64,000 nt of DNA from Rhodanobacter sp. ANJX3 (GTDB lineage Bacteria > Pseudomonadota > Gammaproteobacteria > Xanthomonadales > Rhodanobacteraceae): contig NZ_JACHCM010000003.1 of NCBI RefSeq assembly GCF_014200755.1, positions 62,001 to 126,000 on the forward strand. The letters are read 5' to 3'. The notes below the pieces were generated by a model. It was not told where the DNA came from, ran no database searches, and saw only the letters and a program-made list of their open reading frames with translations. Both the position numbers and the translations under genes were made by a program. Positions 40,932 to 62,943 of this stretch are shown piece by piece; the first letter of the stretch is position 1, and every line of letters starts with the position of its first letter.

Positions 40932-41726
40932 TTACTTTAACTGCTTGGCGTAGGCGGCGGGTGTCAGTCCGCCCAGCGCCTTCTTCGGTCGCTCCTCGTT
41001 GTATTCGCGTCGCCAACGTTCGATCTCGGTGCGGGCGTGCAGCAGGCTGGGAAACCAGTGTTCGTTGAGGCACTCATCGCGCAGGCGTCCGTTGAACGAT
41101 TCGATGTAAGCGTTCTGGTTCGGCTTGCCCGGTTCGATCAGGCGTAACTGCACGCCACGCGCGTGCGCCCAGGCGACCATCGCCTTGCCGCAGAACTCTT
41201 TGCCGTTATCCGTGCGAATCGTCCTGGGAAGGCCGCGACTGTGGGCCAGGCGATGCAGCACGCGCGTTACGCCCATACCGGAGATCGCCCGCTCCACTTC
41301 GATGCCGACCGATTCATGCGTAGCGTCATCAACGATGGTCAGGCACTTCAACACGCGGGCATCGGCCGTGCGATCGAAGACGAAATCCATCGACCACACC
41401 TCGTTGGCCGCCGACGGGCGCAGCAGCGGTTGCCGCTCGCCGATCGGCACCTTTTTGCGCTTGCGCCGACGCACCTGAAGCCGTTCTTGCTGATACAGCC
41501 GCTCCACACGCTTGTAGTTCACCAGCGCGCCTTCCTGTCGAAGCTTCAGATGGATCATGCCCACGCCGTAACGCTTGTGCCGCTGCGCCAGCGCCACGAT
41601 GCGCTGGCGAATGTCCACGTTGTGATCCGGGCGCGGTGCGTAGCGGTAGGCACTCGCGCTCATGCCCACGACGCGCAACGCGCGTCGCTCGCTCAATCCC
41701 TTGTCGATCATCTGGCGCACCAACAC
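40932..41726 (-). CDS. IS3-family transposase OrfB (DDE catalytic domain)
   Basis: 264 aa as an independent frame, probably expressed as the C-terminal part of an OrfAB fusion. The catalytic triad is visible in [10 protein letters not shown] (D), [10 protein letters not shown] (D) and [14 protein letters not shown] (E). The IS3-type HTH_21 region precedes it. It is fused to OrfA by a -1 frameshift on the A7 run at 41756-41750. Confidence 0.93.
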
Positions 41727-41743
41727 GCGTCGGGCCGGTGCGC

Positions 41744-42013
41744 CTACGGTTTTTTTCGCAGGACGTCCTTGATCACCTCGTTCTCAAGCATCTGCTCGGC
41801 GAGCAATTTCTTCAGTCGGATGTTCTCGGTCTCCAACTCCTTCAGACGCTTGGCCTCCGGCACGCTCATGCCGCTGAACTTGCTGCGCCAAAGGTAGTAG
41901 GAGGCTTCGCTGAAGCCGTGCTGGCGGCACAGTTCCTTGATCGGCAGGCCCGCGTCCGTTTCACGCAGGAAGCCGATGATCTGTTCGTCGGTAAATCGCT
42001 TCTTCACGTCCAA
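41744..42013 (-). CDS. IS3-family transposase OrfA (helix-turn-helix and leucine zipper)
   Basis: 89-aa protein [20 protein letters not shown] with a helix-turn-helix ([16 protein letters not shown]) and a C-terminal leucine zipper ([19 protein letters not shown]). It binds the IS ends. Its end at 41744 overlaps the A7 slippery run (41750-41756) used to make OrfAB. Confidence 0.93.
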
Positions 42014-42370
42014 TCTCCTTCGATGGTGGGATTGGACTCCAAATCATCGTGCTACTCAAAACCGGGGGGGCGTCGCCCCCGCAACATCAACTAAGCGCGT
42101 TAGCGGGTAGATACTCATTGCCCCCATTGAAAGAAAGAGCAGTTTGGCTGCTTTAGGTCGTCTGGACAAAGCACGAAGCCGTGCCAGCAGTTCGTCGAAA
42201 CTAAACGGTTTCGCCAAGTAATCGTCCGCTCCCATGTTCAGTACGCTTATTCTGTCCGACACCTGGTTGCGGGCTGACAGCACAAGGATCCGCGGACGAT
42301 TCGCGCGATGGCGTAAATGATCCAGCACAGCCAAACCGTCCTTGCGTGGTAGAACCACAGAACAGACACA

Positions 42371-42580
42371 GTGACAATGCAGGCAGTGGAAGGTCTTTAC
42401 GTTTTGGAGGATGGCAGCTCGACCGTCGAAAGACGCAAACTTCGATCACTAGATAAAACCTTGATTCCTCTTTCGGGCGGCGAATTCGACCTTCTGATGG
42501 CGTTCGCGGAACATCCTCAACACGTCTTGTCACGTGAACAACTTATCGATCTCGCACGCGGCCCGCACCACAGCGCATTC
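42371..42580 (+). pseudogene. C-terminal fragment of a second response regulator
   Basis: The frame MTMQAVEGLYVLEDGSSTVE continues to LSGGEFDLLMAFAEHPQHVL and [11 protein letters not shown], the winged-helix (Trans_reg_C) domain of OmpR-type regulators. No receiver domain precedes it, and at about 42580 it joins a fumC fragment in a different frame. It lies head to head with the other regulator's broken end. Confidence 0.75.
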
Positions 42581-42835
42581 TGTTCCGCACCTTTTCTGTC
42601 GAGAGCACAGAGCTGAACAGGGACAAGATCGATAGTTATATAAGCCAGTCGCCAATGCTCGTTACCGAACTCTTCCCGGTGATTGGCTAACAAAATGCCG
42701 CGCACATTGCCGAGGACGCGGCCGCCGGCGGCGCGACGCTGAAAGAAGCGGCGATCAAGTCTGGGAAGGCGACTCAGGAGCAGTTTGAGAAGATCGTCAA
42801 TCCTTCAACGATGATCGGAAAGGATTTAGCTGCGC
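42580..42835 (+). pseudogene. fumC: C-terminal fragment of fumarase C with an internal stop
   Basis: From about 42583 the frame reads [34 protein letters not shown], a TAA stop (42688-42690), then QNAAHIAEDAAAGGATLKEA and KSGKATQEQFEKIV, closing near MIGKDLAA. This matches the C-terminal end of class II fumarase, where GYDNAA would be expected at the stop. The gene has lost its N-terminus and cannot be functional. Confidence 0.8.
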
Positions 42836-43540: not shown

Positions 43541-43756
43541 TTATCCGCGGGCGGCGTTCGCTAGCAAGATGGCGTCGATCTGTTCGAGCGCGCACAAATA
43601 ATCTTTCGCTGACGCACCATCGGTAATGTCATTGGCTTAGTCCGCGAAAGCAGGCCAGAAATCCCTTCCGTTCGGGTTCTCGGACTTCCTGGCCTCTTAT
43701 TTTCGGTCCAACGCATCCAGTTGTTCCTGGACTTGCTCGCGCGTCAGCGTCTTTCT
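43541..43756 (-). pseudogene. Decayed member of the small scattered protein family
   Basis: One minus frame reads TLTREQVQEQLDALDRK, stop, EARKSENPNGRDFWPAFAD, stop, then ANDITDGASAKDYLCALEQI and DAILLANAARG, ending at TAA 43541-43543. Two internal TAA codons interrupt an otherwise continuous sequence. The pattern NPxxxxFxxAFxxxAxxI matches the intact small proteins at 54785-54988, 54560-54763 and 48303-48563. It lies just upstream of the DUF3606/ligD genes on the other strand. Confidence 0.65.
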
Positions 43757-43893
43757 GCCTTGGCACGCTCCCGTCGGTAGGGCGGACTATGTGCACGCTC
43801 AGGTCGAAGCTGCGTGCTCGAACCAAAGTGACTTGACGGGTGCTTCACCGTGGCGCTGATACGTGTGGCGCACCCAGCCACCAGAAGCCCCCC

Positions 43894-44069
43894 ATGAGCG
43901 ATGACAAATCCAAAACCGGCACTGCAGATCGCAAGCGTGTCAATGTCCACGAAGCTTATGAATTACGGGATTGGGCTAAAAGTGGGGCGTGTCCGAGCAG
44001 CAGGTTCGCGATGCTGTCGCGAAAGTCGGCGTGATGTCTGACGACGTCAAACGCGAGCTGAAAAAGTAA
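43894..44069 (+). pseudogene. DUF3606 protein with a single-base frameshift
   Basis: The start MSDDKSKTGTADRKRVNVHE is the DUF3606 family beginning. After ELRDWAK the frame breaks in an A-run at 43978-43981, where one extra A restores WGVSEQQVRDAVAKVGVMSD and a stop at 44067-44069. The correct protein would be about 58 residues. The frameshift may be a true mutation or a sequencing error. The restored stop is 3 nt before the ligD start, so the two genes would be cotranscribed. Confidence 0.75.
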
Positions 44070-44072
44070 GTC

Positions 44073-46658
44073 GTGTCGCTCGCCGTCTACAAACGCAAGC
44101 GGCAGTTCGATAAGACGCCCGAGCCGAAGGCGGAGGATTCTGCCAAAAAGGGCCGGCGCCCCATCTTTGTGGTACAGCTCCATCATGCGAGCCGCCGGCA
44201 CTACGATTTCCGTTTGCAGGTGGGAGACACGCTTAAAAGCTGGGCGTGCCCGAAAGGTCCGAGTTTCGACCCTGCGGTGAAGCGGTTGGCCGTTGAAGTC
44301 GAAGACCACCCGATTTCCTATGCAACGTTCACCGGCGACATCCCACAAGGGCACTATGGCGGTGGCCATGTGGACACCTTCGACACTGGAGTCTGGTCAA
44401 CCGACGGGGACGCAGAGGCGCAACTACAAAAAGGGCATCTTCGATTTGAGCTTTTTGGCAAGCGCTTGAAGGGCGGCTGGCATCTCATCCGCAGTGGGAG
44501 CAAAGAGAAAAAGCCCGTTTGGTTTCTGATGAAAGAAAAAGACGGGTTTGTGAGCGCCGTTGAGGCGGACGATTTGCTCGATGCAACCATGAGGTCGAGC
44601 ACGAAAAAGGCGGCCGGGAAAAGCGGCGGCGCTGAAGAAGTCGCTGCCAAGCTGAAGAAGACCAAGCCGAAAAAAGTGCCTGTAAGCAAGCGCTCGAAGG
44701 TCGCCGCGGAGAAGTTGGCCAAGGCCGCCACGGGCGCCAAAAAAGCGCCGCCGAGCGCCGCCCCCTTCAAGCCGGAGTTGGCGCGCCTTCATGAGAGCCC
44801 GCCGAAGGGCGACAGCTGGCTACACGAAGTGAAGTGGGATGGCTACCGCATCCTCACCACGATCGTTGATGCAGAGGTCAACCTCTGGTCGCGCAACGCC
44901 CTACTATGGACAGACAAGATCCCCGACATCCGTCAGGCGATCGAGGCGCTGGGATTGCACTCGGCCCACCTCGACGGCGAGCTCATTGCGGTCACCGATG
45001 GTAGGCCTGATTTCAACGCACTGCAGCAGACGCTCTCCGGTGAGAAATCGGCGCCCCTGATCTATATGCTTTTTGATGTGCCGTATCTCGAAGGGTATGA
45101 CCTCACTCGCACGCCGCTTGTCGAGCGCAAAGGCATTGTCGAAGCTTTGCTGAAACAACCTTCCCGACACCTCGCTTACAGCAGCCACACGGTGGGCAAC
45201 GGCGACCAGATGTTTGCGATGGCTTCTGAGCACAAACTCGAAGGCATTATGTGCAAGCGCGCCAACTCCGTCTACCACGGTGGTCGAGGTGATGACTGGT
45301 TGAAAGTAAAACGTCTGGACGCGGACGAGTTTGCAGTGGTGGGCTACACCGCGGCCAAAGGTTCGCGCAGTGGATTCGGGTCGTTGCTTCTGGCGAAGCC
45401 GGCGCCGAACGGTGAATGGGAATACGTCGGCCGTGTGGGTTCCGGGTTCTCCGATGAAATGCTGCACGAGCTGACCAAGAGCCTCGCCAAGGGCGGCACA
45501 TCGAAGCCTTCGATCAAGCACGCGAGCGAGGCGCCAAAGGGGGGGCGGTGGATTAAACCCACGGTGGTCGCCGAAGTGTATTTTCGCGGCATCGGAAACC
45601 AAGGTTTGTTGCGCCAACCGTCATTGAAAACCATGCGCCTCGATAAGTCGCCAGGTGATTTGCTCTACAGCGACCGAGCAAAAGCGCCCGAAGGTAAAGC
45701 GCCAAGCAAAGCGTTGAAAGCAACCAAAGCAACTAAGAAAAAGTCAGGCCGCACGCTTGCTCCAGTTGACGACGACAGCGAGATCAAAATCACGCATCCT
45801 GACAGAGTGGTTTTCCCAGACGATCGCTACACCAAACAAGACGTGGCGAATTACTATCACGCTGTCATGCAATGGTTTTTGCCGGGTGTCATCAAGCGCC
45901 CGACGAGCGTCATACGTTTTCCAGCGGGCATCGAAAAGGCGAGCTTCTTCCAAAAGCACATCCCCACGGGGGGCCTAAAGCATGTGGGCGATGCACGACT
46001 GAAAGAAGAGACGGGCGCATCGGCCGTTTATATCTACCCCACCTCCCCTGCATCTATCATCGAGCTCGTCCAATACAACGCCATAGAGTTTCATCCGTGG
46101 GGATCGCACGTCGACGAGCCGAACCTGGCTGATCGCGTCGTGTTCGATCTCGACCCTGGGCCGGGCGTGTCTTGGGCACGCGTGCAAGCTGCAGCCAAGC
46201 TTGTGCGGAAATTGCTCGCGGACATGAAGCTGCAGTCGTTTCTTCGCACCACGGGCGGCAAGGGCCTGCACATCGTGGTGCCTTTGAACCCGCCATCCAA
46301 ATGGGAAAGCGTCAAGCAGTTTGCCCAAGGGTTCGCTGCCGCCATGGCTGGCGCACATCCGATGGATTTCGTCGCGACTTCGAGCAAGGCGGTTCGGAAC
46401 GAAAAAATCTACGTGGACTATTTGCGCAACGGTCGGGGGGCCACGGCGGTTGCCTCCTATTCTCTGCGGGGACGGCCCGGCGCTCCTGTGGCGATGCCCA
46501 TTCGCTGGGAAGAACTAGCTAAATTGAAAAGCGGGAGCCAATTCAACATCAAGACAGCAGTTGCTCGCTTGAAGCGCCAGAAAAAGGATCCATGGGATGG
46601 CATCGACGACGTGAAGCAAAACCTCGCTTCGGTGATCAAACTACTTTCAGGTCGTTGA
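44073..46658 (+). CDS. ligD: Multidomain DNA ligase D
   Basis: 861-aa NHEJ enzyme with the order phosphoesterase, ligase, polymerase. The phosphoesterase (about residues 25-160) shows LHHASRRHYDFRL with His37, His43 and Asp45. The linker (about 165-240) is Lys/Ala-rich. The ATP-dependent ligase (about 240-520) has the adenylated Lys254 in EVKWDGYR. The primase-type polymerase (about 560-855) has metal Asp pair DLD at 692-694. GTG start at 44073, 3 nt after the DUF3606 stop. Normally LigD works with Ku; no ku gene is visible in this window. Confidence 0.94.
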   Translation: MSLAVYKRKRQFDKTPEPKAEDSAKKGRRPIFVVQLHHASRRHYDFRLQVGDTLKSWACPKGPSFDPAVKRLAVEVEDHPISYATFTGDIPQGHYGGGHVDTFDTGVWSTDGDAEAQLQKGHLRFELFGKRLKGGWHLIRSGSKEKKPVWFLMKEKDGFVSAVEADDLLDATMRSSTKKAAGKSGGAEEVAAKLKKTKPKKVPVSKRSKVAAEKLAKAATGAKKAPPSAAPFKPELARLHESPPKGDSWLHEVKWDGYRILTTIVDAEVNLWSRNALLWTDKIPDIRQAIEALGLHSAHLDGELIAVTDGRPDFNALQQTLSGEKSAPLIYMLFDVPYLEGYDLTRTPLVERKGIVEALLKQPSRHLAYSSHTVGNGDQMFAMASEHKLEGIMCKRANSVYHGGRGDDWLKVKRLDADEFAVVGYTAAKGSRSGFGSLLLAKPAPNGEWEYVGRVGSGFSDEMLHELTKSLAKGGTSKPSIKHASEAPKGGRWIKPTVVAEVYFRGIGNQGLLRQPSLKTMRLDKSPGDLLYSDRAKAPEGKAPSKALKATKATKKKSGRTLAPVDDDSEIKITHPDRVVFPDDRYTKQDVANYYHAVMQWFLPGVIKRPTSVIRFPAGIEKASFFQKHIPTGGLKHVGDARLKEETGASAVYIYPTSPASIIELVQYNAIEFHPWGSHVDEPNLADRVVFDLDPGPGVSWARVQAAAKLVRKLLADMKLQSFLRTTGGKGLHIVVPLNPPSKWESVKQFAQGFAAAMAGAHPMDFVATSSKAVRNEKIYVDYLRNGRGATAVASYSLRGRPGAPVAMPIRWEELAKLKSGSQFNIKTAVARLKRQKKDPWDGIDDVKQNLASVIKLLSGR

Positions 46659-46664
46659 TGCCGG

Positions 46665-46850
46665 TCATCGTTCGTCGCGACTGAGTCCACAACGCCCGAC
46701 TTTCTCGACATTCCCATCTTTGCTTTTTGGTTTCGTACCTGGCCTGTTCGCACCGGCTGGCTTAATGGGTTTCACCACTCCATCCGGAATGCCATCGCCC
46801 TTCGGCGGGTGATCTTTTCCGTTTTCACCGGGCAGGATTTTCTTGCTCAT
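46665..46850 (-). CDS. Small basic hypothetical protein
   Basis: 61 residues beginning MSKKILPGENGKDHPPKGDG; strongly basic, rich in Lys, Pro and Gly, no membrane segment. It lies between ligD and the Nramp-like gene and ends only a few nt from the end of ligD (convergent). No family recognised, and it could be a chance frame. Confidence 0.4.
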   Translation of the reverse strand: MSKKILPGENGKDHPPKGDGIPDGVVKPIKPAGANRPGTKPKSKDGNVEKVGRCGLSRDER

Positions 46851-46975
46851 GGCGCGCTCCACGTGGACGGTAGCCCAAGTATTTCGCCGAACGCGTCCTT
46901 GCCGCGTGAGCTCATTCGACATGATGGCCATGCCCGTCCACGACCGCAGAGACAAATACGGGCTGGAAAGGTTGA

Positions 46976-48265
46976 TCAGCTGCTCCCCAAGGTGCAGAAC
47001 ATGACTACAGCTGCGGCAGCCATGACGGCCGTGGCCAACCAGGCAATCCATTTGACCCACCCGTTGATGGCGAACTTTTTCATCAATGCCGTTTTCTGTG
47101 CCAACAGCATGACCGCCACCATGATCGGCACCGCCGCCACCCCGTTGATCACTGCGCTCCAATACAACGCTTTGAACGGGTCGATGGGCGTGAGGTTAAG
47201 ACCGGCACCCATGGCCATGGCGCCGATCAGGATGATGTAAAAGAATTTAGCCTTTTGGGGCTTGTGTTCCAGTCCGTAAACGTTCCCCGTTGCTCCCGCC
47301 CAGGCGTAGGCGGTCGCACCGGCGAGCACCGGAACGGCCAGCATGCCCGTGCCGATGATGCCGCCTGCAAAAAGCCAAAAAGCAAATGGTCCGGCAATCG
47401 GTTTGAGGGCGGAGGCGGCTTCGGCCGATGAATGTATGTCGGTGTTACCGTGCGCATGCAAGACCGCCGCAGCCGTGAGAATGATAAAGAACGCCACCAC
47501 ATTTGAAAAAACCATCCCAATCACGGTATCGACGTTGATGCGTTCGATTGCGTCTTTTCCCTGAGAAGGTTTTTCCGCCAGCGCCCTTCTCGGCCCATCG
47601 CTTTTAAGCTCTTCCACTTCGCTGGCGGCTTGCCAAAAAAACAGAAAGGGACTGATCGTCGTGCCCAAGATGGCGACGATGGCGGTGGCATAATCGGCCG
47701 TCCATTGGAACGAGGGAACGAATGTTCCATGAATCGCTTGGCTCCAAGGCACTTTGACAACAAAGATCGTTGCTACATATGCAAAAAGACTGATCGTCAG
47801 AATTTTTAGAATTGGTGAGTATTTTGAAAAAGGGATGAAGACTTGAAGCAGCGTGGACAGCAACCCGAAACCCAGGGCATAGGCCACGGCCGGTCCACCA
47901 ATGAGAAGTTGCAGAGCGGACCCCATCGCACCCACGTCGGCACCAAGATTGATCACGTTTGCGACGACCAGCGCACCCACCAATGACGTGACAATCCAGC
48001 CCGGAAACTGGGTGCGCATGTTGTCGGCCAATGATTTGCCGGTCACTCGCCCGATACGCGCGCTGACAATTTGAATGGCAATCATCAGCGGCAGCGCAAG
48101 AAACATGGTCCAAAGTGTGGCGTAGCCAAACTTTGCGCCGACCTGCGAATAAGTGGCCACGCCACTCGGGTCATCGTCGGCCGCGCCTGTAATCAAGCCA
48201 CTGCTTAAAGCTCTCAGCCAACGAAATGAGCCGGATTTAGTCCGGTCGGTGTGCTCTTCAGCCAT
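46976..48265 (-). CDS. Nramp-family divalent-metal transporter-like protein
   Basis: 429-aa protein starting MAEEHTDRTKSGSFRWL with about 11 membrane helices. Helix 1 carries DDDPSGVATYSQVG, where the Nramp DPGN motif is DPSG, so the metal-binding Asn is replaced. Helix 6 has GTGMLAVPVLAG in the place of the Nramp methionine region. This pattern is that of the NrmT/Nramp-related group that may carry other ions such as Mg2+. The function is inference. ATG 48289 would add eight residues. Confidence 0.75.
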   Translation of the reverse strand: MAEEHTDRTKSGSFRWLRALSSGLITGAADDDPSGVATYSQVGAKFGYATLWTMFLALPLMIAIQIVSARIGRVTGKSLADNMRTQFPGWIVTSLVGALVVANVINLGADVGAMGSALQLLIGGPAVAYALGFGLLSTLLQVFIPFSKYSPILKILTISLFAYVATIFVVKVPWSQAIHGTFVPSFQWTADYATAIVAILGTTISPFLFFWQAASEVEELKSDGPRRALAEKPSQGKDAIERINVDTVIGMVFSNVVAFFIILTAAAVLHAHGNTDIHSSAEAASALKPIAGPFAFWLFAGGIIGTGMLAVPVLAGATAYAWAGATGNVYGLEHKPQKAKFFYIILIGAMAMGAGLNLTPIDPFKALYWSAVINGVAAVPIMVAVMLLAQKTALMKKFAINGWVKWIAWLATAVMAAAAVVMFCTLGSS

Positions 48266-48302
48266 CTGGTTGCTCCCCGTGATGCGCAACGATGCTGTGG
48301 AG

Positions 48303-48563
48303 TCAGTGAGGATCAGGTGAGGTGATCGGACGCTTCAAAACCTCCTCGTCGAGAGGCAGCAGCCGATACGAACAGAGCGCCGCATTGATTTGCTCAATAG
48401 CCCAGCTTCGATCAGTGGTGTCAGCGTCGAACAATAAAATCGTGACACTTCGATGAAGTGCCTCGCGGAAATGATCCGGCGATTGGTTGTTCACCAGTAA
48501 ATATGCCAGTTTCCCTTCAAGTTGAGCGATGCGGTGCCCTAGAGCTGAACGCGAAATGGCCAT
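48303..48563 (-). CDS. Small protein, candidate member of the scattered family
   Basis: 86 residues beginning MAISRSALGHRIAQLEGKLA. It carries NQSPDHFREALHRSVTILL, then SWAIEQINAALCSYRLLP, which aligns with the small proteins at 54560, 54785 and the pseudogene at 43541: hydrophobic helix, short turn, F-x-x-A pattern, then an INxxL helix. It is alpha-helical in prediction, soluble and of unknown function. The spacing to the Nramp gene (38 nt) suggests cotranscription. Confidence 0.6.
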   Translation of the reverse strand: MAISRSALGHRIAQLEGKLAYLLVNNQSPDHFREALHRSVTILLFDADTTDRSWAIEQINAALCSYRLLPLDEEVLKRPITSPDPH

Positions 48564-48851
48564 GGCGTTTTCTCACATTTGACGGCTTTGGTTTCTGGCG
48601 ATGATGGGCGTCGGAAGAAGTTCACCTCAAACTTCCTGCAAGTTTTCATTCATTTTTCGAGTTGCGGCGTCACGATGGCCGCCGGCCGATCAACCGCTGT
48701 GATGCATGTGTCTCTTCTCGTATCACGGCCTCTTGCACAAGGGGCAAAGGGAGCGATCGTCCCACCACGACGTCAATCGACCCTATGCAAATGCTTCTCC
48801 ACACATTCACGTATTACGCGACATGGTGCGCAAAAAATCGGGAGAACGCCA

Positions 48852-49127
48852 ATGATTCAGCTTAATCCGCCGCTGCCATTAAACACGCCCAAGGGCGAAG
48901 GTTTTGCGCATTTGATGTTGGATTATGGCCCAGAGTCAGATCTCTATTGGGTCGTTCTTATTACAGAAACGGGTGAAATATGGACCTACGCCAACCGGTA
49001 CGTCCGTGCAAGCAAGAACATCACGCTCGGTCGCACCAATCCGACGTTGCCCCTGGCGCCGGCAGCCGTCCCACCTAATGAACGTGTCCCAATGCGTCCC
49101 CGCGCCGTGGAATTCGAGCCGAGTTGA
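48852..49127 (+). CDS. Conserved-looking hypothetical protein
   Basis: 91 residues: MIQLNPPLPLNTPKGEGFAH, LDYGPESDLYWVVLITETGE, NRYVRASKNITLGR, then a proline-rich tail. It resembles widespread small proteins found in phages and islands that carry the same NTPKG...YGPESDLYWV core, but their function is not known to me. A ribosome site (GGAGAA, 48840-48845) precedes the ATG. No signal peptide. Confidence 0.65.
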   Translation: MIQLNPPLPLNTPKGEGFAHLMLDYGPESDLYWVVLITETGEIWTYANRYVRASKNITLGRTNPTLPLAPAAVPPNERVPMRPRAVEFEPS

Positions 49128-49268
49128 CGGTACGCACAGAATCAAACATTTAACTCATCCCCGTGGCCTTTCGTCCACATGGGACGACGTTGGGGATAGC
49201 CCACTGCGCCTATGCTTGGGTGTTTAGGGATATTCTTTCGCCACGCGATCAAGAAGTGGCGAATAAGA

Positions 49269-49649
49269 GTGAATGACAGACTTGTGGCTCTTATCGTTGA
49301 AGATGACCCAGGCGTGCGCGGTACGTTGGTGCTTTTTGTTGAGTCTTTTCCCGACGTCGACATATTGACCGCCGCTGGCTTCCAGCAGGCGTCCGCAATG
49401 ATTGCCACGGTTGCTCGAATCGACCTGCTGCTCTGCGACGTGATGCTACCGGGAAGCCTGAGCGGCATTGACATCGCAGAGGCTGTCGCTCAAACACATC
49501 CGGCGGCTGCCATAGTCATCATGTCTGCGGACCCGCAAGAGGAAATCGCAGGTCTCACAGACCGATTTATTTTCATGCAAAAGCCGTTTGGCATCGCCGA
49601 ACTTACCGACGTCATCGACAACGCATTTCTTCGGCTTCGCTCTGACTGA
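49269..49649 (+). CDS. Single-domain response regulator (CheY-like)
   Basis: 126-aa receiver domain without output domain. Conserved positions: EDD pair at the N-terminus (ALIVEDDPG), phospho-acceptor Asp in LLLCDVMLPG, Ser/Thr in VIMSADPQ, and Lys in FMQKPFGIAEL. GTG 49269 gives VNDRLVALIVEDD and fits better than the upstream ATG 49212, which adds an unlikely extension. A likely partner is one of the nearby kinases. A decayed relative lies at about 55090-55445. Confidence 0.85.
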   Translation: MNDRLVALIVEDDPGVRGTLVLFVESFPDVDILTAAGFQQASAMIATVARIDLLLCDVMLPGSLSGIDIAEAVAQTHPAAAIVIMSADPQEEIAGLTDRFIFMQKPFGIAELTDVIDNAFLRLRSD

Positions 49650-49773
49650 GTTTCCGGTTATATGGCCGACCGTCCCGAGCTGCCACCGGGCCGCCGCTAG
49701 TGAAAGTCTCTGGCGGTTTGCGCCTTGGGCCGAGCGTTAATTGCAGAACCCGCTCGTTCCCTCACTGAACCCA

Positions 49774-50708
49774 TCAAGTCAGCGCGAATGAGTTCGAACC
49801 AGAGGCTTCGCCTTTGAATTCGCGCTTGAGGGTGGCGGCGTTGCGCTGCCCCTGATCTTCAAAGTTGTTGTTGAAGATTGCCTGGACCAGGGCGGCGTGC
49901 GTCGCGAGCCGTCGCATCTTCTCAACGAACTGTTCAAGCTCTTCGTTTGAGTAGTCGTAATTGAAACGGTCGGACGCTGCGGTCTGACCTTTAGCGTACC
50001 ACGTCTCGGCGTTACGACCGTGTAGGCGAAGGATCGCCAAGTTCGGGCTCGTCGCCTCCCAGATTTGCGGCAGGCTATTGGAAAACCCCTGGGGCATGTC
50101 CAGGACGACGTGTGCGAAGTTATGTTGGCGTTCGAACTCCAACGTCGCTTCACTATGCTCGTCGTCAAACCACTTTTTCTGGCGAAATTCCGTAGCAAGT
50201 TGGAACCCCTTCATACGCTCCGCGCGGTCTTCAATATGCGCATGCCACTCTCTTGATGGCACCACCCATGGCGGGAACTGAAAGTGGACGGCGCCCAATT
50301 TACCGGCGCTGCGCAGCGGATCAATGGCGATCTTAAAACGCTCCCACATCGCATCCAAAATTTCGCCTGGCATGTCCTTGTAGTAAACGTTGTTGCGCCC
50401 TGCGAAAAACCACGTCAGTTCGTGCTGGATGTCCGCCGGTAGAGATTTTGGCGGTGTCTGATGTCCCGTGAAAAGCCGAAACGCCTTGATGTTGAAAGTG
50501 AAGCCGGCGGCGTGCGCTCGACCCACTTTTCAGAATTGGTAAGCGACGGCATGGCGTAGTAGCTGCTGTCGACTTCGACCATGGGATAATGTTCTGCGTA
50601 GTAACGCAGTCGCGCCTCCGCACTGCTGCACCCACGCGGATAGAAACGCTTGGAAGTGATCAGGCTTTTGTCTGTCCAGCTGGCGGTGCCGACTTGGATT
50701 TCGCCCAT
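49774..50708 (-). pseudogene. DUF72-family protein disrupted by one frameshift
   Basis: The N-terminal part (50708-50415) reads MGEIQVGTASWTDKSLITSK, the DUF72 beginning, up to KWVERTPPA. A different frame continues AGFTFNIKAFRLFTGHQTPP and on to the stop at 49774, with family signatures FQFPPWVVPS and ILRLHGRNAETWYAKG. The break lies near 50505-50515, one base missing. It is a TIM-barrel protein of unknown function found next to stress genes. It may be a true pseudogene or a sequencing error. Confidence 0.8.
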
Positions 50709-50790
50709 TGTGGCGTTTCCTTGGGGTCTAACCCGGACTTAGTTCGACCGGTCCTCCGATTGTGCACATCTGTAGAGTCGATCCTGGCAT

Positions 50791-50982
50791 TCAACGTCCG
50801 CCCGATGCCAGAAACTTTTCCGAAGCCGTCAGCGCCCAGGAACCGTGGACGACTTTCGTGAGAAGCCCCCCTGCTTCGAGCCGCCGGCACGCGCTCTGGT
50901 CTTCAGCTGTCAACTTGGCTAAGGCGTTCCGGCTGAGGTGACTGAGGATATAGCGCTCTTCTGACGACAAATCTTTGGTCAC
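50791..50982 (-). CDS. Small hypothetical protein, winged-helix-like
   Basis: 63 residues from GTG 50982, VTKDLSSEERYILSHLSRNA then RLEAGGLLTKVVHGSWALT. The pattern resembles a small winged-helix or transcription-regulator fragment, but no family is secure. It follows the DUF72 gene region on the same strand and lacks a clear ribosome site. Confidence 0.4.
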   Translation of the reverse strand: MTKDLSSEERYILSHLSRNALAKLTAEDQSACRRLEAGGLLTKVVHGSWALTASEKFLASGGR

Positions 50983-51142
50983 ACTGTTACCCGTTCGTTT
51001 TGTTATATGACACGGCGCGAACAACCTCCCTTCTCTTCTTATTGCTCTCTGGAAACGAAGTTCGTAGCGACTAATCGAGATGCGCAGCCGGTGGACTAAA
51101 ACACCTACCGAGCGCGTCACGAGGCAACCTGCAAACAGAGCC

Positions 51143-51364
51143 TCAAATACCGGCGTAGCCACCCAGCGCGTAGTCGTCGTTGACTGTTGGCGCACCCTCG
51201 CCGGTTGCTTTAGGCTTCGCCTTGATCGCGTCAACGATATGCCCAGTTGCATCGGGGACGGAAACGGAAAAATCGACCGACGGCTGGCCCACCTGTTCCA
51301 CGCTCACCTCAATATTCGAGTGCGTTTCGTCGGGAAGAGAAACGGAAAAGCGAAAAGTAGACAT
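51143..51364 (-). CDS. Small hypothetical protein
   Basis: 73 residues: MSTFRFSVSLPDETHSNIEV, followed by SVEQVGQPSVDFSVSVPDAT, a repeat of a beta-strand motif (FSVSLPD, FSVSVPD), then a disordered tail. It is soluble and acidic. I do not recognise the family. The two-fold beta motif suggests a small beta domain. Confidence 0.5.
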   Translation of the reverse strand: MSTFRFSVSLPDETHSNIEVSVEQVGQPSVDFSVSVPDATGHIVDAIKAKPKATGEGAPTVNDDYALGGYAGI

Positions 51365-51484
51365 AACGGCTTCCTGATCTGCCTTGTTGGCAGGCGAAGC
51401 GTGCCCCCAACGATGTTCAAGACGCGTCAAGTTTGGCGCAGCGTTCAGCCGCCCGCTGGAAAAGGTGGCCGGTCGCGGCGGCAG

Positions 51485-52561
51485 TCATTTTTGATTGGGG
51501 TCAGGGCCGAGGTGTTCGAAATTGGGCTCATAGGCTTTCACGAAAGCGTTGTGAAGCACAGCAATGATGGCCTCTGAAACGCTTAGGTTTTTTTGGTCCG
51601 TACGCCCACTGATGGGCACTCGGGTGGCAAACTGATCTTTGTCGTGGTTTTTGAATATGGATGTCACTCCCTGCAACGTTGCGGACCAAGCCACCTGGAT
51701 GGGATTTTTGTGTTCTTGTTCGACATCCTTTTTCCAGCTGAATATCTTCAAGTTTTGGAACAAGGGTTTGGCGTAACCGGACAATTCCTGGTTTTTCGCC
51801 GCCAGCTGCATGACAAAGTCTCCCTTTCCGCTGGCGAAGTCGAAGCCGCCATACGCTCGCGCCAAGTCGTTTGCCTTGGTGAGGTCAATGGATAGCACTC
51901 GAAGTTCGAACGAGAAATTACCCTTAGTAGACAGCGGGTCGAAGCTGCCTTTGAAGGTCAGCGGCGCTTGGCCCAGAACATCGGCACGCACATCCGCCGT
52001 CGCTACAACGTCACCCTGATTGCGGGAGGCATTGGATAGATTGGTCAGCGTGCCATTAACGTTCGTCGCTTTCAGATCGACGCGAGGGCTCGACACGAAG
52101 TTCTGGAACGTTACCGCGCTGTTGTGGACATTCAACTCGTCGATCCGGATGGGCGTGAGCTTTTCTAGCTGCGCGCGCCAATCGGTGCCCTTGCCACTTT
52201 GAGAAGTCCCTTTTCCACCCCCGTCGACGAAGTTAAGGGAGGCATCAAAGAAATCAATTTTAGAACGAACAACTCCATGGGTCAGTGCCCTCCAGCTGAC
52301 AGCGATGTCGATCCGGGGCGCTTTGAGAAAGGGAACGGGCACTTTGCCCTCCACGTTTTGAATGACAACTCCGTCCATGGAGTAGGCACCGCGCCAAAGG
52401 TGGATCTCGATGTCCGCGACATGCCCTTTATAGGACCCCATATTTGCAAGACGCCCGTTCACATAGTTGAGGACGAAGTGCGGAAGCGCCAGCCGCAGGG
52501 CAACCAGCACAACGATCAACGCGGCCAGCACCCAAAGGACGACTCGATAACGGGTTCTCAT
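51485..52561 (-). CDS. DUF748/AsmA-like membrane-anchored protein
   Basis: 358 residues from ATG 52561, with an N-terminal membrane helix (about 6-25, VVLWVLAALIVVLVALRLAL). A long periplasmic beta-rich region follows, with AsmA-type repeats such as YSMDGVVIQNVEGKVPVPFL and FASGKGDFVMQLAAKNQ. AsmA-like proteins are thought to help lipid transfer between membranes or assembly of outer-membrane components. The longer open frame to 52777 lacks family similarity at its start. Function is inferred from the family. Confidence 0.8.
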   Translation of the reverse strand: MRTRYRVVLWVLAALIVVLVALRLALPHFVLNYVNGRLANMGSYKGHVADIEIHLWRGAYSMDGVVIQNVEGKVPVPFLKAPRIDIAVSWRALTHGVVRSKIDFFDASLNFVDGGGKGTSQSGKGTDWRAQLEKLTPIRIDELNVHNSAVTFQNFVSSPRVDLKATNVNGTLTNLSNASRNQGDVVATADVRADVLGQAPLTFKGSFDPLSTKGNFSFELRVLSIDLTKANDLARAYGGFDFASGKGDFVMQLAAKNQELSGYAKPLFQNLKIFSWKKDVEQEHKNPIQVAWSATLQGVTSIFKNHDKDQFATRVPISGRTDQKNLSVSEAIIAVLHNAFVKAYEPNFEHLGPDPNQK

Positions 52562-52882
52562 GACGGCACGCCTGTGGACGGTGTATTTGAAGCTTCCCAA
52601 AGAAATCGTCATGTCCGCGTCAAGCGGAACGGGAATACGAACGACCTCCCGGGCCAATACGCCATTCTGGATCGACGCGTGCGGCCGTTCTGCGGACATC
52701 AGCTGGCCAAGCAGGAAAGCGATAACTATTGATCGCGACCCTCTGAAACGCATGCTAAATAGCCTGGAGCCACCCACCTCGATTGGAGAACTTCGTGTTC
52801 AGCCTATGTCATCCCTTGGCATCCGAGCCATCGCTGCGACCCGGTTGCCAAACTGACTCTCGCAGGCAAAGCGGGTGAGCTT

Positions 52883-53212
52883 TTAACCGGACGGCTTATT
52901 AGCGCGTTCGTGCCAGTGATAGTAAGGAGTGTTTTTAACGAGGTAGCGATTGAAATCCTTGGCGCCATCCGTCCACCAGACCGGGCCGCGTTCACCGAGC
53001 GATACCTTCACCGCGTTAACCGAGCTGCGGGCAGCTTTTAAAGCATCTTCATCATCCATCGCCAATGCAGCTTTGACGGCTCGCCGGCCGTCCATCAGGG
53101 CACGAACAAGTGCTTGCCGAACTGATGGCAAGAGATCGGGATTAGCTACTCGCCAAAGGCGTCCACGAACCACCACGTAGCGACCATCGGGTGTTAATAA
53201 TTGCTTCATCAC
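52883..53212 (-). CDS. Conserved hypothetical protein of about 109 residues
   Basis: MMKQLLTPDGRYVVVRGRLW, then QALVRALMDGRRAVKAALAM, GPVWWTDGAKDFNRYLVKNT. I recall similar proteins of unknown function near NHEJ or stress genes in alphaproteobacteria, but cannot verify this. It is mostly helical and has a conserved GERGPVWWxDGA segment. It could share regulation with the kinase 91 nt upstream of it on the same strand. Confidence 0.65.
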   Translation of the reverse strand: MMKQLLTPDGRYVVVRGRLWRVANPDLLPSVRQALVRALMDGRRAVKAALAMDDEDALKAARSSVNAVKVSLGERGPVWWTDGAKDFNRYLVKNTPYYHWHERANKPSG

Positions 53213-53302
53213 ACGCTTGAGATGTCAGGTCCGTCCGTGTTTTTTTTGCAAAAGTAAAATCATCGCCTTACGAAACGGCAACGGGTCAGTCAGCCATCGT
53301 CG

Positions 53303-54442
53303 CTACTGCAAAGGGAGTGACACGCTAAACATGGTCCCGCTCTCCTCTGAAGAGGCAACATCAATTGTGCCGCCATGGGCGGTGACGATTTCCTGCGCAA
53401 CAAACAGACCGAGTCCTAAACCGGCGCGCGGTCCTCGCTCGGCCTTGGCGAACTGAGAGTGCCGGACCATCGGATTGAAAATCCTGGCTAGATCCTCTGC
53501 TGCGATGGGATCGCCTTGATTATGTATCGAAAAAACGGCCAGCTCTCCTTCCCGCCGCTGCGTGACGACGACGGGCGAGCCCGGTGAACCGTGTTTAATC
53601 GCATTTTCGATGAGGTTGGAAAACACCTGACCGAGGCGCGCATTATCGAATTTCCCGACGATGGAGCCATCAGGCTCGAACACAACCGCGCGATCGGGAT
53701 GCGCCAGACTCGCCTCGTGAACGATACTCTCGCAAAGAGCGTTGAGGTCGCCATCGACGCGATCAACTGGGATACCGTTCCCCACGCGTGCACGCACGAA
53801 GTCCAGGAGATCTTCAACGATCCTTTCGGCCCGACGCACGCTTGTGGAAATCCCTTCGGCCACTCTTGCTTGCCGACTGCCTTGCTCACTGGCATTTAGA
53901 AAGAATTCGGCAGAAAGAAGAATTGCGCCCAGCGGCGTGCGCAAGTCGTGTCCAAGCACGCCGAGAAAAACGTCCTGCGATTCGTTGACTGCTTGCGAAT
54001 AACGAGCCACTGATTCTGCCAGCCCCTGGTCGATCGCTTCGTTGAAGCGCAAAGTGTCCTCGGCGAGAAACTCGTCGTCGTTGCCGCGTGACTGCGACCA
54101 CAACAAGAGCACGCTGGCTCGCAGCGCACGATACTCTGCCACCAATTGCACAACGCTCAGACCTGAGCGCAGGCGCGCACCGGCGTGGACTTCCGACGCC
54201 GTATCGCTCCCACACTTTGGTCCATAACCTCGCGATTTATCAGCGCTCTCCTGCGCCGACTGTGAGGTGCCCATGTCGACGGCGATTTCAAGCAACATCT
54301 CTTCGGCGTGATCCCTTAATTCCTTGGGCCCCATCTCCCTATTCCCAGGCATCAAGCTGCTAGCAAAGGTGTCCCAAGCGTCGAGAATGGTGATTCGATG
54401 GGTAAGAATAAACTGTGCCAAGCGCATAGGCATGAGCTCCAA
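53303..54442 (-). CDS. Sensor histidine kinase with RsbRD-type N-terminal domain
   Basis: 379-aa cytoplasmic kinase. The N-terminal 150 residues (MELMPMRLAQFILTHRITIL, HAGARLRSGLSVVQLVAEYR) resemble the RsbRD_N/helical sensor domain of stress-response kinases. The H-box is VLGHDLRTPLGAI (His165), followed by HATPase_c with NLIENAIKHG, the GxGLGLF motif (GLGLGLFVAQEIV) and a final GT-F segment. There is no membrane helix. It is adjacent to the small paralogous proteins, which may be partners or regulators; that is inference. Confidence 0.88.
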   Translation of the reverse strand: MELMPMRLAQFILTHRITILDAWDTFASSLMPGNREMGPKELRDHAEEMLLEIAVDMGTSQSAQESADKSRGYGPKCGSDTASEVHAGARLRSGLSVVQLVAEYRALRASVLLLWSQSRGNDDEFLAEDTLRFNEAIDQGLAESVARYSQAVNESQDVFLGVLGHDLRTPLGAILLSAEFFLNASEQGSRQARVAEGISTSVRRAERIVEDLLDFVRARVGNGIPVDRVDGDLNALCESIVHEASLAHPDRAVVFEPDGSIVGKFDNARLGQVFSNLIENAIKHGSPGSPVVVTQRREGELAVFSIHNQGDPIAAEDLARIFNPMVRHSQFAKAERGPRAGLGLGLFVAQEIVTAHGGTIDVASSEESGTMFSVSLPLQ

Positions 54443-54559
54443 ATAAGCGGCTCAGTTTAACCAGTTGGGCGGTTTAGATGCGCTTCTGCGGCGCCTTAAG
54501 GCGTGGCGCGCGTGAGGTATTTATCGTCTTCAGACCAATGGTCGATGCCTCAAAAGAAA

Positions 54560-54763
54560 TCAGTGCAGCGTGAATCCGTTGAAACCATCACGGACACCCG
54601 ACTTGCGCAGCATGATGAATAAGCAATCGAGCACATACTCCTGTTCTGAACCTTCGGCCAAACCCAAGATCAGTTCCGACCGGTCCTCGAATGCACGTAA
54701 AAAACCGTTCACGCCTTCGGTCTGGACGATCGACGGAATGTCGATTTCCAATTGACGCAGCAT
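54560..54763 (-). CDS. Small protein, candidate family member
   Basis: 67 residues MLRQLEIDIPSIVQTEGVNG, FLRAFEDRSELILGLAEGSE, then YVLDCLFIMLRKSG. It shares the F-x-x-AF-x-x-x-x-x-x-I and terminal L-x-x-x-x-ML pattern with the next gene (54785-54988) and with 43541 and 48303. Predicted all-alpha and soluble. It lies between the kinase and its own paralogue, both on the same strand. No ribosome site was examined in detail. Confidence 0.6.
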   Translation of the reverse strand: MLRQLEIDIPSIVQTEGVNGFLRAFEDRSELILGLAEGSEQEYVLDCLFIMLRKSGVRDGFNGFTLH

Positions 54764-54784
54764 CGAGGTCAGAGCGCAACGCCA

Positions 54785-54988
54785 TCAATGTGCCCGACCC
54801 AGGATACGGTTTATCTCTGCGGACACCCACGCGTCGTTCTCAGCGTCCACAATGTCGGTGATGAGTCCGGCTTGCTCCGCAAAGGCGTCGATGAAGTCGC
54901 TCCGGTCTGGATAAGCCTTTTGTAGCCAAGGCGTGTCGGCTTCCAGGCCCGTCAACAATTTTCGCAATTTTTCGTGTGTTGCAGCCAT
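54785..54988 (-). CDS. Small protein, candidate family member
   Basis: 67 residues: MAATHEKLRKLLTGLEADTP, WLQKAYPDRSDFIDAFAEQA, GLITDIVDAENDAWVSAEIN, RILGRAH. YPDRSDFIDAFAEQAGLITD corresponds position by position to NPNGRDFWPAFAD(stop)ANDITD of the pseudogene at 43541. It is acidic and all-helical. Start 54988 is preferred over the 55096 ATG, which adds a low-complexity segment. It sits 21 nt upstream of the 54560 paralogue. Confidence 0.65.
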   Translation of the reverse strand: MAATHEKLRKLLTGLEADTPWLQKAYPDRSDFIDAFAEQAGLITDIVDAENDAWVSAEINRILGRAH

Positions 54989-55089: not shown

Positions 55090-55445
55090 TGCACAAACGC
55101 CAGACGGCTGCATCAGCTCATAAACCCCAAAAGGTCTCTGGGTAAACGCTCGCACAGGGGGGCAGGCCTTTGACGTCCATGCGCGCTTTCAAAAACATTA
55201 TCACGACGGCACGCGGGGGTGAGCGACCTTGGCAAGTTCGGCGCCATGCAATCCCTGAGATCGCCTCGCAGCCAGACGTTAGGCAGCAAGAAATCTATTC
55301 TCTTCTCCGCTTCGATCCAGATCGTCGCCCACCCGAAATCACGGTTGCATAAGACTCTGACATCGGGCATTCGTTCGATGAACGAACGTAGGGTGGCAAG
55401 TAAGACGCTGCAATCATCCACCAGCAACGCGATAAAATTTGGCAT
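55090..55445 (-). pseudogene. Decayed response regulator receiver domain
   Basis: The first frame, MPNFIALLVDDCSVLLATLR, resembles the intact receiver at 49269-49649 (ALIVEDDPGVRGTLVLFVES), and FLLPNVWLRG corresponds to LLLCDVMLPG, where the phospho-acceptor Asp is replaced (CDV to PNV). After about 55255 similarity moves to other frames (LHGAELAKVAHPRVPS, then VIMFLKARMDVKGLP), showing at least two frameshifts. A paralogue that has lost function. Confidence 0.7.
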
Positions 55446-57752: not shown

Positions 57753-58194
57753 GGCGTTCTCGTTTCGTCAAGTCGGCTGATGACTCCGGCTACGCGCTCG
57801 GTAGGGACTCATCCATTAGCGTAAAAAAACCGACGTGAGGATAGCAGCAACTCAGTGGATCACTATACGTGTGCGCTAACCAGCTCCCTGCCGTTAAGCT
57901 AGGTCCTCTCTTACCTCATTTTTTGTCATTTTCTAAGTGAATTCTTATAGATCGAAACAACGCAGTGGATCGAACGCCACGTACCGATAAGTTCCTTGTC
58001 GCCAGCCGTCCGAAAACGAAACGAAGTAATAAATCGTATGGTTAGCGGCAGGAGTCCAGCGCAGCCCTGTATTGTAAGGCTTTCAGGGAACAGCGCCCAC
58101 GCTGGATAGTACACATGTTGGTTCAAGCGCAGCCCAGAGGTCAGAGTGAATGGCAAGCTGTCAATGCGTTTGTGCAGCGAGTGAGCACGTTACA
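57753..58194. other. Gap before the next remnant
   Basis: 442 bases, moderately AT-rich near 57840-57950. Small open frames (57926-58156 minus) have no family features. Promoter signals for the hybrid kinase are expected near 57753-57800 but no clear -35/-10 pair is obvious to me. Confidence 0.4.
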
Positions 58195-58404
58195 CGCCGA
58201 TCATCGTTCCAGGCATTTGAATGTCGCTGAATACCAAAACGATGTCATTGGCAGACGACAGCAAATCCACGGCTTGATCGGCGCTCGACCCTGCGAAAAC
58301 ACGATACCGGCCGTTTCCGACACCATGGCGGCCGGCTCCCTAATCGTTGCGTCATCCTCAGCCACGAGGTTCAGGGGAGCGGGCGGCGACATGGAAAAAT
58401 TCAC
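58195..58404 (-). pseudogene. Truncated receiver domain with frameshift
   Basis: The first frame reads LVAEDDATIREPAAMVSETA, a receiver N-terminus with the EDD acidic pocket. After a +/-1 frameshift the other frame continues YRVFAGSSADQAVDLLSSAN and LVFSDIQMPGTMIG, a phospho-acceptor Asp in SDIQMPG, then stops. The rest of the receiver is missing. It probably once belonged to a response regulator paired with one of the adjacent kinases. Confidence 0.75.
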
Positions 58405-61620: not shown

Positions 61621-61825
61621 GACTGGAATATGCGCCATCGAACAATTGAGAATGTTGTAGGATATTTTCAGGCAGCAACAGTCCAAGACTATACTGGAGC
61701 GCTGCTTCTAAAATAAAACAAGCCAGATAATAGATCGCAGCGACTCTGACCTTATCCCTGCCATTTGTAGCGTTTGGAAGTAGAGTTTTCGGCAAAACCA
61801 ACCCTCACCAGAAGGCTGTTTTGCC

Positions 61826-62092
61826 ATGAAAAAGACCAAGTACACCGAAGAGCAGATCGCGTTTGCGCTGCGCCAGTCAGAAAGCGGCACGACCGTCGCG
61901 GAAGTTTGTCGAAAGATGGGCATCTGCGAAGCCACGTTTTTCAACTGGAAAAAGAAATACGGCGGACTGGGCGTGTCGGAGCTCCGCCGTCTGCGCCAGT
62001 TGGACGAGGAGAATCGCAAGCTCAAGCAGCTCGTTGCGGACCTGAGCCTGGACAAGGCGATGTTGCAGGATGTGCTTCAAAAAAAGCTCTAA
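61826..62092 (+). CDS. IS3-family transposase OrfA
   Basis: 88 residues: MKKTKYTEEQIAFALRQSES, VAEVCRKMGICEATFFNWKK, then a leucine zipper ENRKLKQLVADLSLDKAML. Helix-turn-helix binding domain. The gene ends in CTTCAAAAAAAGCTC, where the A7-G slippery run (62079-62085) allows a -1 shift into OrfB. Confidence 0.93.
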   Translation: MKKTKYTEEQIAFALRQSESGTTVAEVCRKMGICEATFFNWKKKYGGLGVSELRRLRQLDEENRKLKQLVADLSLDKAMLQDVLQKKL

Positions 62093-62943
62093 GGCCGGCC
62101 CAGCGCAAGGCGCTGGCCGGCAAGCTTCAGCACACTTACGGTGTAAGCATTGGTCGTTCATGTTCGCTCATGCGGCTGTCGTTGACGGGTTGGTACTACC
62201 GGCAAACTCTTCCGCTTCTCGACGCCCCGCTGCTCACGCGGATGCGCGAGATTGCTGAGGTTCGCGTTCGCTATGGAGCGCGCCGCATACACATCTTGCT
62301 TCGTCGCGAAGGATGGGCTGTGAATCACAAACGGGTACATCGCATATACGTGCAGGCGGGGCTCAACCTGCGTTCCAAGAGACCGCGCCGGCGTAAGGCG
62401 GCAGCGACACGTCTTGATCGGCCCGTGCTGACAGGACCGAACCAGTTATGGAGCATGGACTTTGTTTCTGATGCACTGTTCGATGGTCGCCGCTTTCGTG
62501 CACTGACGATCGTCGACAACTTCACCCGCGAATGCCTGGCTATCGATGTCGCTTCCAGTCTGCGCGGCGAGAACGCGGTGAGCGCGCTGGAAGGCCTACG
62601 GCAATGTCGCGACCAGCCATGCCGTATACAGGTCGACAACGGTCCTGAATTTATCTCGATGGCATTGGACCGCTACGCATACGAGCACAGCATCACGCTC
62701 GACTACTCTCGCCCTGGCAAGCCAACGGACAACCCTTTCATCGAATCTTTCAATGGTTCGTTTCGCGACGAATGTTTGAACACGCACTGGTTTCTGACAC
62801 TTGCAGATGCCACGGAAAAGATTGAATCTTGGAGGGCTGACTATAATGATTTTCGCCCGCACTCATCTCTAGCAGATATCCCGCCAGCGCAGTTCGCGAA
62901 GACCTTTTGCAAGACTCACCAACCGCCGACAACTCTACTTTAA
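62086..62943 (+). CDS. IS3-family transposase OrfB, produced as OrfAB by -1 frameshift
   Basis: About 285 residues after the slippery site, beginning near GQRKALAGKLQHTYGVS if read in the -1 frame. HTH_21 and integrase core with WSMDFVSDALF (D), VDNGPEFISM (D) and DNPFIESFNGSFRDE (E). The frame moves from that of OrfA to the -1 frame, consistent with programmed frameshifting at AAAAAAG. No internal stop is visible, so the element may be active. Confidence 0.9.
   Translation, partial: ALRPAQRKALAGKLQHTYGVSIGRSCSLMRLSLTGWYYRQTLPLLDAPLLTRMREIAEVRVRYGARRIHILLRREGWAVNHKRVHRIYVQAGLNLRSKRPRRRKAAATRLDRPVLTGPNQLWSMDFVSDALFDGRRFRALTIVDNFTRECLAIDVASSLRGENAVSALEGLRQCRDQPCRIQVDNGPEFISMALDRYAYEHSITLDYSRPGKPTDNPFIESFNGSFRDECLNTHWFLTLADATEKIESWRADYNDFRPHSSLADIPPAQFAKTFCKTHQPPTTLL

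Follow-up and report, generated by a model that had tools for sequence, protein, structure and literature searches.

Four short genes in a 64,000-nucleotide stretch of the genome of Rhodanobacter sp. ANJX3 (contig NZ_JACHCM010000003.1, positions 62,001 to 126,000; hereafter the window) belong, as judged by sequence, to one protein family. It is an unnamed family of about 67-86 residues, predicted to fold as a mostly acidic three-helix bundle and nearly confined to the order Lysobacterales, and its genes have two recurrent partner modules beside them: SRAP, a protein of the YedK/HMCES type that forms crosslinks with abasic sites of single-stranded DNA, and a single subfamily of orphan receivers, the latter in Rhodanobacter. 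We infer, with a confidence a little short of an even chance, that each copy is a small soluble partner which binds and modulates the protein encoded beside it.

The four genes were verified at 43541-43756, 48303-48563, 54560-54763 and 54785-54988, all on the minus strand. A first profile of 14 rows was built from the gene at 54785-54988 (P3) and 13 homologues from elsewhere, the other three window copies being excluded, and when the whole 64 kb was scanned in six frames it matched exactly four sites, with domain E-values of 9e-28 (54785), 1.4e-13 (43541), 4.7e-5 (54560) and 1.2e-4 (48303); the next-best matches were a chunk overlapping 48303-48563 at E 0.23 and then one at 1.9. A second profile, with 70 rows exclusively from other genera, returned the same four sites and no others (2.3e-16 for 43541, 9.7e-14 for 54785, 2.9e-7 for 48303 and 5.1e-6 for 54560), and its next match, at E 0.45, was likewise a chunk overlapping 48303-48563 (P1). 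The common layout and aligned positions that an earlier note, made from the sequence of the window, had described for these genes are thus borne out by a profile from outside the genus, and the shared positions exceed chance, the top whole-sequence score in 20 residue-shuffled windows being 14.9 bits, whereas the lowest-scoring of the four reaches 24.0 bits. In fact, the positions picked out in that note are the consensus of the family, which consists of a leucine-rich helix 1 ending in P-x-L/I, followed by DFW..AF...AD.I and then by D..WV....I..IL.

Structure prediction for P3, made with 18 other rows, gave a three-helix bundle (helices 5-25, 29-44 and 49-65; pLDDT 94.7, pTM 0.79), and P1 gave helices 5-24, 29-46 and 49-65 (pLDDT 79.4), a spacing that agrees with that of P3. 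The agreement is not fully independent because both predictions used the same alignment rows, and two of the four copies were folded; within this scope the earlier description of the proteins as helical holds. The family has a median pI of 4.58, and of 130 domain rows, 115 have a pI of less than 6. It had been said to lack a name, and no fitting family was found in Pfam or NCBIfam: the window proteins P0001-P0003 had no match near any cut-off, and 36 members gave single-member matches only, with lowest E-values of 0.0062 in Pfam and 0.014 in NCBIfam. A search of the PDB and BFVD with the predicted fold returned nothing significant, Foldseek giving no match that reached E 0.001, and the top Z of 7.5 in a VIA structure comparison lies within the range of common bundles, the matches being generic bundles. 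Among them is YlaN (2odm and 9a4a), a helical bundle aligned over 65 and 67 residues at Z 6.7 with rmsd 3.6 and 3.4, which ranks, however, level with designed bundles scoring Z 6 to 7.5, has a Foldseek E of 5.8 and gives no evidence of kinship. Nor was the family found described in the literature searched on SRAP, on HMCES/YedK partners or DNA mimics, on phrog_38324, on Rhodanobacter CsbD and on Xanthomonas SRAP.

With a 36-row profile, the family was detected in 125 of 398 genomes of the order, all in the Rhodanobacteraceae and Xanthomonadaceae bar one weak match (E 4e-4). Class-wide it was found in 3 of 274 genomes and phylum-wide in 4 of 398, one of the latter being a stray match within a kinase (genome G980, E 6.6e-6). 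Of 45 genomes of the genus, 12 carry the family, often in several copies; the number per family-bearing genome ranges from one to eight, and the genome of the window has eight, four in the window and four outside it. Named records with the family are from Rhodanobacter, Dyella, Frateuria, Lysobacter, Pseudoxanthomonas and Xanthomonas, together with one Massilia metagenome bin. For the analysis of gene neighbourhoods, 109 copies were collected in 91 sources, comprising the window and 90 loci picked for holding the family.

Immediate neighbours were tallied from our own gene calls in these sources, 10 of which were left out as repeats of contexts already counted. The 176 neighbours were reduced to 149 by dropping 11 under 55 residues, 8 glucan synthases and 8 other short ones; genes at least four genes away served as controls (145, or 141 after those under 55 residues were dropped), and both sets were scanned with Pfam. 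SRAP is the strongest neighbour across the order and the commonest Pfam family beside the small genes, at 14 of 149 neighbours in comparison with 0 of 141 controls by our own SRAP profile (Fisher p 9e-5), and it is also absent among the 25 Pfam families listed for the controls. Of 130 family rows, 34 have a SRAP gene no more than 1.6 kb away, which is downstream on the same strand in 24, upstream in 4 and on the opposite strand in 6, a count that includes near-copies (for example the two domains each of L142 and L161, one plasmid present as both L154 and L185, and the pairs L232/L233, L229/L236 and L234/L237) and the weak SRAP match of L176/L226 (E 1.2e-6). Where the SRAP gene was called next downstream (n=13), the gap is -11 to +10 nt in 12 cases and 308 nt in one, and annotated plasmids from X. 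campestris, X. citri and Dyella carry the pair of small gene and SRAP gene.

The SRAP partners fall into two subfamilies, the canonical MCGRY type and the MCYSA type, which is longer and has an insert of about 100 residues. An alignment of 16 partners shows the Asn to be invariant, the Glu and His to be nearly so, and Cys2 to be present in 15; in E. coli YedK, the reaction is carried out by Cys2, Asn, Glu and His (PMC9436759). The family tree is weakly resolved, and on it the SRAP label, counted as observed, requires 22 changes, so that the association is scattered. Two tandem fusions of the family domain were found (L142 6833-7261 and L070 7940-8365); in the subset of long open frames that was inspected, the others proved to be out-of-phase frames or overlapping neighbours. 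Both fusions lie directly upstream of SRAP, although in L070 just a short SRAP-like frame follows. In genome G047 (L079 and L080) a second small protein of about 73 residues (MTTRAADYE...) is encoded after the family member and beside a divergent SRAP gene, and relatives of it occur near family members of L169 and L171. A published parallel is a neighbourhood link of small proteins of SOS operons (YolD, ImuB-C) to SRAP and mutagenic repair operons (PMC3765255), but the available part of that source names no small helical partner of this kind and mentions neither Xanthomonas nor Dyella.

The second module concerns receivers. The earlier note had taken the repetition of the small genes near kinases and receivers to suggest a partner or signalling role, perhaps as regulators of the kinases. 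In the gene-call tally Response_reg shows no excess (3 of 149 versus 2 of 141), a tally in which some small receivers had been missed by the gene calls. A six-frame receiver profile over the 91 sources detected 36 receiver domains, of which 13 lie within 1 kb of a family member (10 without the three in the window), followed by 3, 5, 8, 3, 3 and 1 in successive kilobases, and those nearest to the family form one stand-alone subfamily. In the genome of the window, three close receiver copies (50-100% identity to the query, itself one of them) each have a family member less than 1 kb away, and a fourth receiver, at 30% identity, does not. The same pattern holds in 12 Rhodanobacter genomes, where five of six close receivers (46% identity or more; one of the six is a fragment) have a family member within 1.5 kb, compared with one of 16 more distant receivers (Fisher p 0.001), so that the proximity to receivers is borne out for Rhodanobacter.

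Receivers thus do better than kinases as neighbours of the family. HATPase_c domains occur at 2 of 149 neighbour positions versus 3 of 141 controls, and a kinase profile built from three window kinases, which recovers the window's own, found none in six frames around the P3 homologues of genomes G030 (L064, a 9.3-kb contig) and G026 (L067, 16 kb), nor in the receiver-bearing loci L068, L075 and L076. Kinship of the family with the HWE_HK or HisKA_2 dimerisation domains was also considered and rejected, the hhalign probabilities being 5.9% and 1.6%, and because these are so low the match in the G980 kinase is taken as chance. Single-sequence scores against kinases are weak (best 0.00026 over 30 kinases), and the family consensus contains no histidine, while the kinases compared have their phospho-accepting His in the motif ELxHRVKN. 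The fact that 54560-54763 adjoins a kinase and the recurrence of stand-alone receivers nearby speak for regulation of the neighbouring kinases, but kinases are not conserved neighbours, and we regard this proposal as highly improbable. The partner role in the original suggestion stands, and the regulation of kinases is left unsupported. Dedicated partners fit better than a kinase regulator, because one acidic fold with many paralogues is encoded by genes that abut or overlap those of different stress effectors.

In the proposed explanation, each family copy would bind the product of the adjacent gene and modulate that product, the commonest partner being SRAP and, in Rhodanobacter, the stand-alone CheY-like receiver. 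With SRAP, the acidic bundle might shield the surface that binds DNA and be displaced by damaged single-stranded DNA; with the receiver, the family member might bind one phosphorylation state. The direction of modulation is likewise what we infer. The receiver case is modelled on IraP and IraM, small helical anti-adaptors that act under stress on a lone receiver, the protein RssB, a parallel offered as analogy alone.

Several observations weigh against this explanation. A family member lies within 1.5 kb at just 6 of the best 30 loci of the longer, MCYSA-type SRAP and at none of the best 30 canonical SRAP loci across the order, most of which belong to families in which no such small protein was detected; the small protein is therefore an optional addition to SRAP. 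No SRAP match is present in the window's own genome, and a role with SRAP therefore cannot belong to these four copies. On an R. denitrificans plasmid and on a further X. campestris plasmid, the small gene has no SRAP next to it. The argument from charge is weak because 8 of 12 SRAP inserts are themselves basic, with a pI of 9 or more. On the receiver side, one partial family copy in G026 is the neighbour of two of the five close receivers. Finally, many copies have neighbours other than SRAP or receivers, and one mechanism for all of them is not obvious.

These other neighbours bear on a different account, in which the family members are independent small stress protectants that act alone in the manner of CsbD, co-regulated with neighbouring stress genes and without any binding. 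The family is small, acidic and present in multiple copies, and CsbD genes occupy 4 of 149 immediate neighbour positions. Universal stress protein genes (named by eye) face the family member in 7 Dyella-type loci, and an NdvB-type glucan synthase (also named by eye) precedes it in 10 Xanthomonadaceae loci, overlapping it by 4 nt in 6 of these by our own gene calls. DUF72 accounts for 2 of 149 neighbours, and on an R. thiooxydans plasmid the DUF72 gene overlaps the family member by 4 nt. The start-stop overlaps with DUF72, SRAP and glucan synthase genes suggest paired products, against the expectation for proteins acting alone, and the CsbD-like proteins (PF05532), themselves small stress proteins, differ from the family in that 0 of 36 members match them at E 0.1 or better. 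Common regulation finds no counterpart upstream of the genes either. Four LexA-type patterns had no upstream match in any of 138 copies, and the loosest pattern used, CTG-N10-CAG, was found at 9 of 138 copies versus 35 of 540 control stretches, which is no excess; SOS control of the family genes was rejected on these grounds, and a shared promoter was set aside since the enriched dyads seem, by eye, to stem from one orthologous Dyella group. Stress protection by the small proteins alone is a possible but rather unlikely account.

There is also a broader form of the partner reading, in which the one acidic three-helix fold would be, in Lysobacterales, a plug-in regulator of differing stress effectors (the abasic-site crosslinker, the orphan receiver, the glucan synthase and the DUF72 protein), each paralogue being dedicated to the adjacent gene. 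This extended form, which includes a dedicated regulator of the SRAP crosslinker, appears unlikely to us. We know of no dedicated protein regulator of a SRAP crosslinker, and none was found in the literature searched.

Also to be considered is the mobility of the genes. Family copies reside on Rhodanobacter, Dyella and Xanthomonas plasmids, in three viral contigs and, by eye, beside prophage-like genes in L056 and L075; some copies are broken, and 6 of 36 members are matched by phrog_38324, an unnamed phage family of PHROGs (best E 7.9e-12). These features would suit plasmid or prophage accessory genes that aid the survival of incoming DNA together with SRAP, the chromosomal copies being remnants. 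Against this, one typical member had no match in 50,697 phage records, and Dyella-type and Xanthomonadaceae genomes have orthologous sets on the chromosome whose context is conserved, which makes an origin as mobile accessory genes quite improbable. The phrog_38324 family, which has no function assigned in PHROGs, gave no match to P3, and no paper containing its name was found in the literature searched. As a separate observation, a 56-residue frame at L051 15490-15657 matches the anti-CRISPR AcrIC5 profile (PF22147, E 1.7e-10).

Within the window, P3 (54785-54988, minus strand, 67 residues), identified by profile matches, predicted fold and homologues, is the only clearly intact copy, with homologues 72% identical in G026 and 51% identical in G030. 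P2 (54560-54763, minus), recognised by its profile match and by alignment with G030, keeps an open frame and has lost its 5' end: about 10 N-terminal residues (MALRSDLDA...) sit in another frame because 5 nt are absent near the 5' end relative to the same gene of G030, where the copy bears a different lesion. The original start of P2 (ATG 54785-54783, counted by hand from the alignment) overlaps the P3 stop codon. P1 (48303-48563, minus, 86 residues), supported by profile matches and predicted fold, is open but divergent and lies just upstream of, and on the same strand as, a gene for an Nramp-like transporter (46976-48289, minus), assigned by Pfam and neighbour clustering, a gene of which kind is also near family members in L051 and L067. 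The copy at 43541-43756 (minus; domain about 43556-43747 by profile matches) contains two in-frame stops and no start, in agreement with its earlier designation as a pseudogene.

Two receivers of the family-associated subfamily accompany these copies. One, at 49278-49649 (plus), is intact and stands alone about 0.7 kb from P1 on the opposite strand (Response_reg 7.1e-12 for ORF 49212-49649). The other is a remnant at 55113-55445 (minus), directly upstream of P3, with its matched part at 55257-55445 (E 4.7e-10), the full ORF giving no receiver match in Pfam; a receiver remnant also precedes the P3 homologue in G026 (L067 7366-7491, E 3.9e-8). A second decayed receiver gene of this block was noted at 58130-58318 (minus), on the same strand as P3. 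Downstream of P2 lies the histidine kinase (53303-54442, minus; HisKA, HATPase_c and a weak RsbRD_N by Pfam and the kinase profile), a neighbour that is not conserved and whose RsbRD-like match is under the Pfam cut-off (21.1 versus 24.3 bits). A DUF72 gene (49774-50708, minus), which clusters with genes of L068 and L069, is split in the ORF list over two frames (49774-50526 and 50415-50708), being either a frameshifted gene or an assembly error. The two decayed receivers, P2 and the 43541 pseudogene show that the region is in decay. IS3-type transposase genes (by eye) flank the block at 40932-42007 (minus) and 61774-62943 (plus), and a regulator-like gene lies in pieces around 42056-42616. 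In G026, the P3 homologue is near an Lhr-type helicase, an ATP-dependent DNA ligase and an exonuclease-like gene (L067 964-5967; named by eye), a group that looks like a repair operon.

From bacteria to humans, SRAP proteins crosslink covalently to abasic DNA, and to our knowledge little is established about the control of this reaction in bacteria. The family described here is present in 125 of 398 genomes of the order, yet is nameless in Pfam and NCBIfam. If the proposed explanation is true, the control of SRAP would be directly accessible through a small protein dedicated to it and translated beside it, and the co-location of the family with an orphan-receiver subfamily in Rhodanobacter would provide a second link of the small protein to stress signalling.

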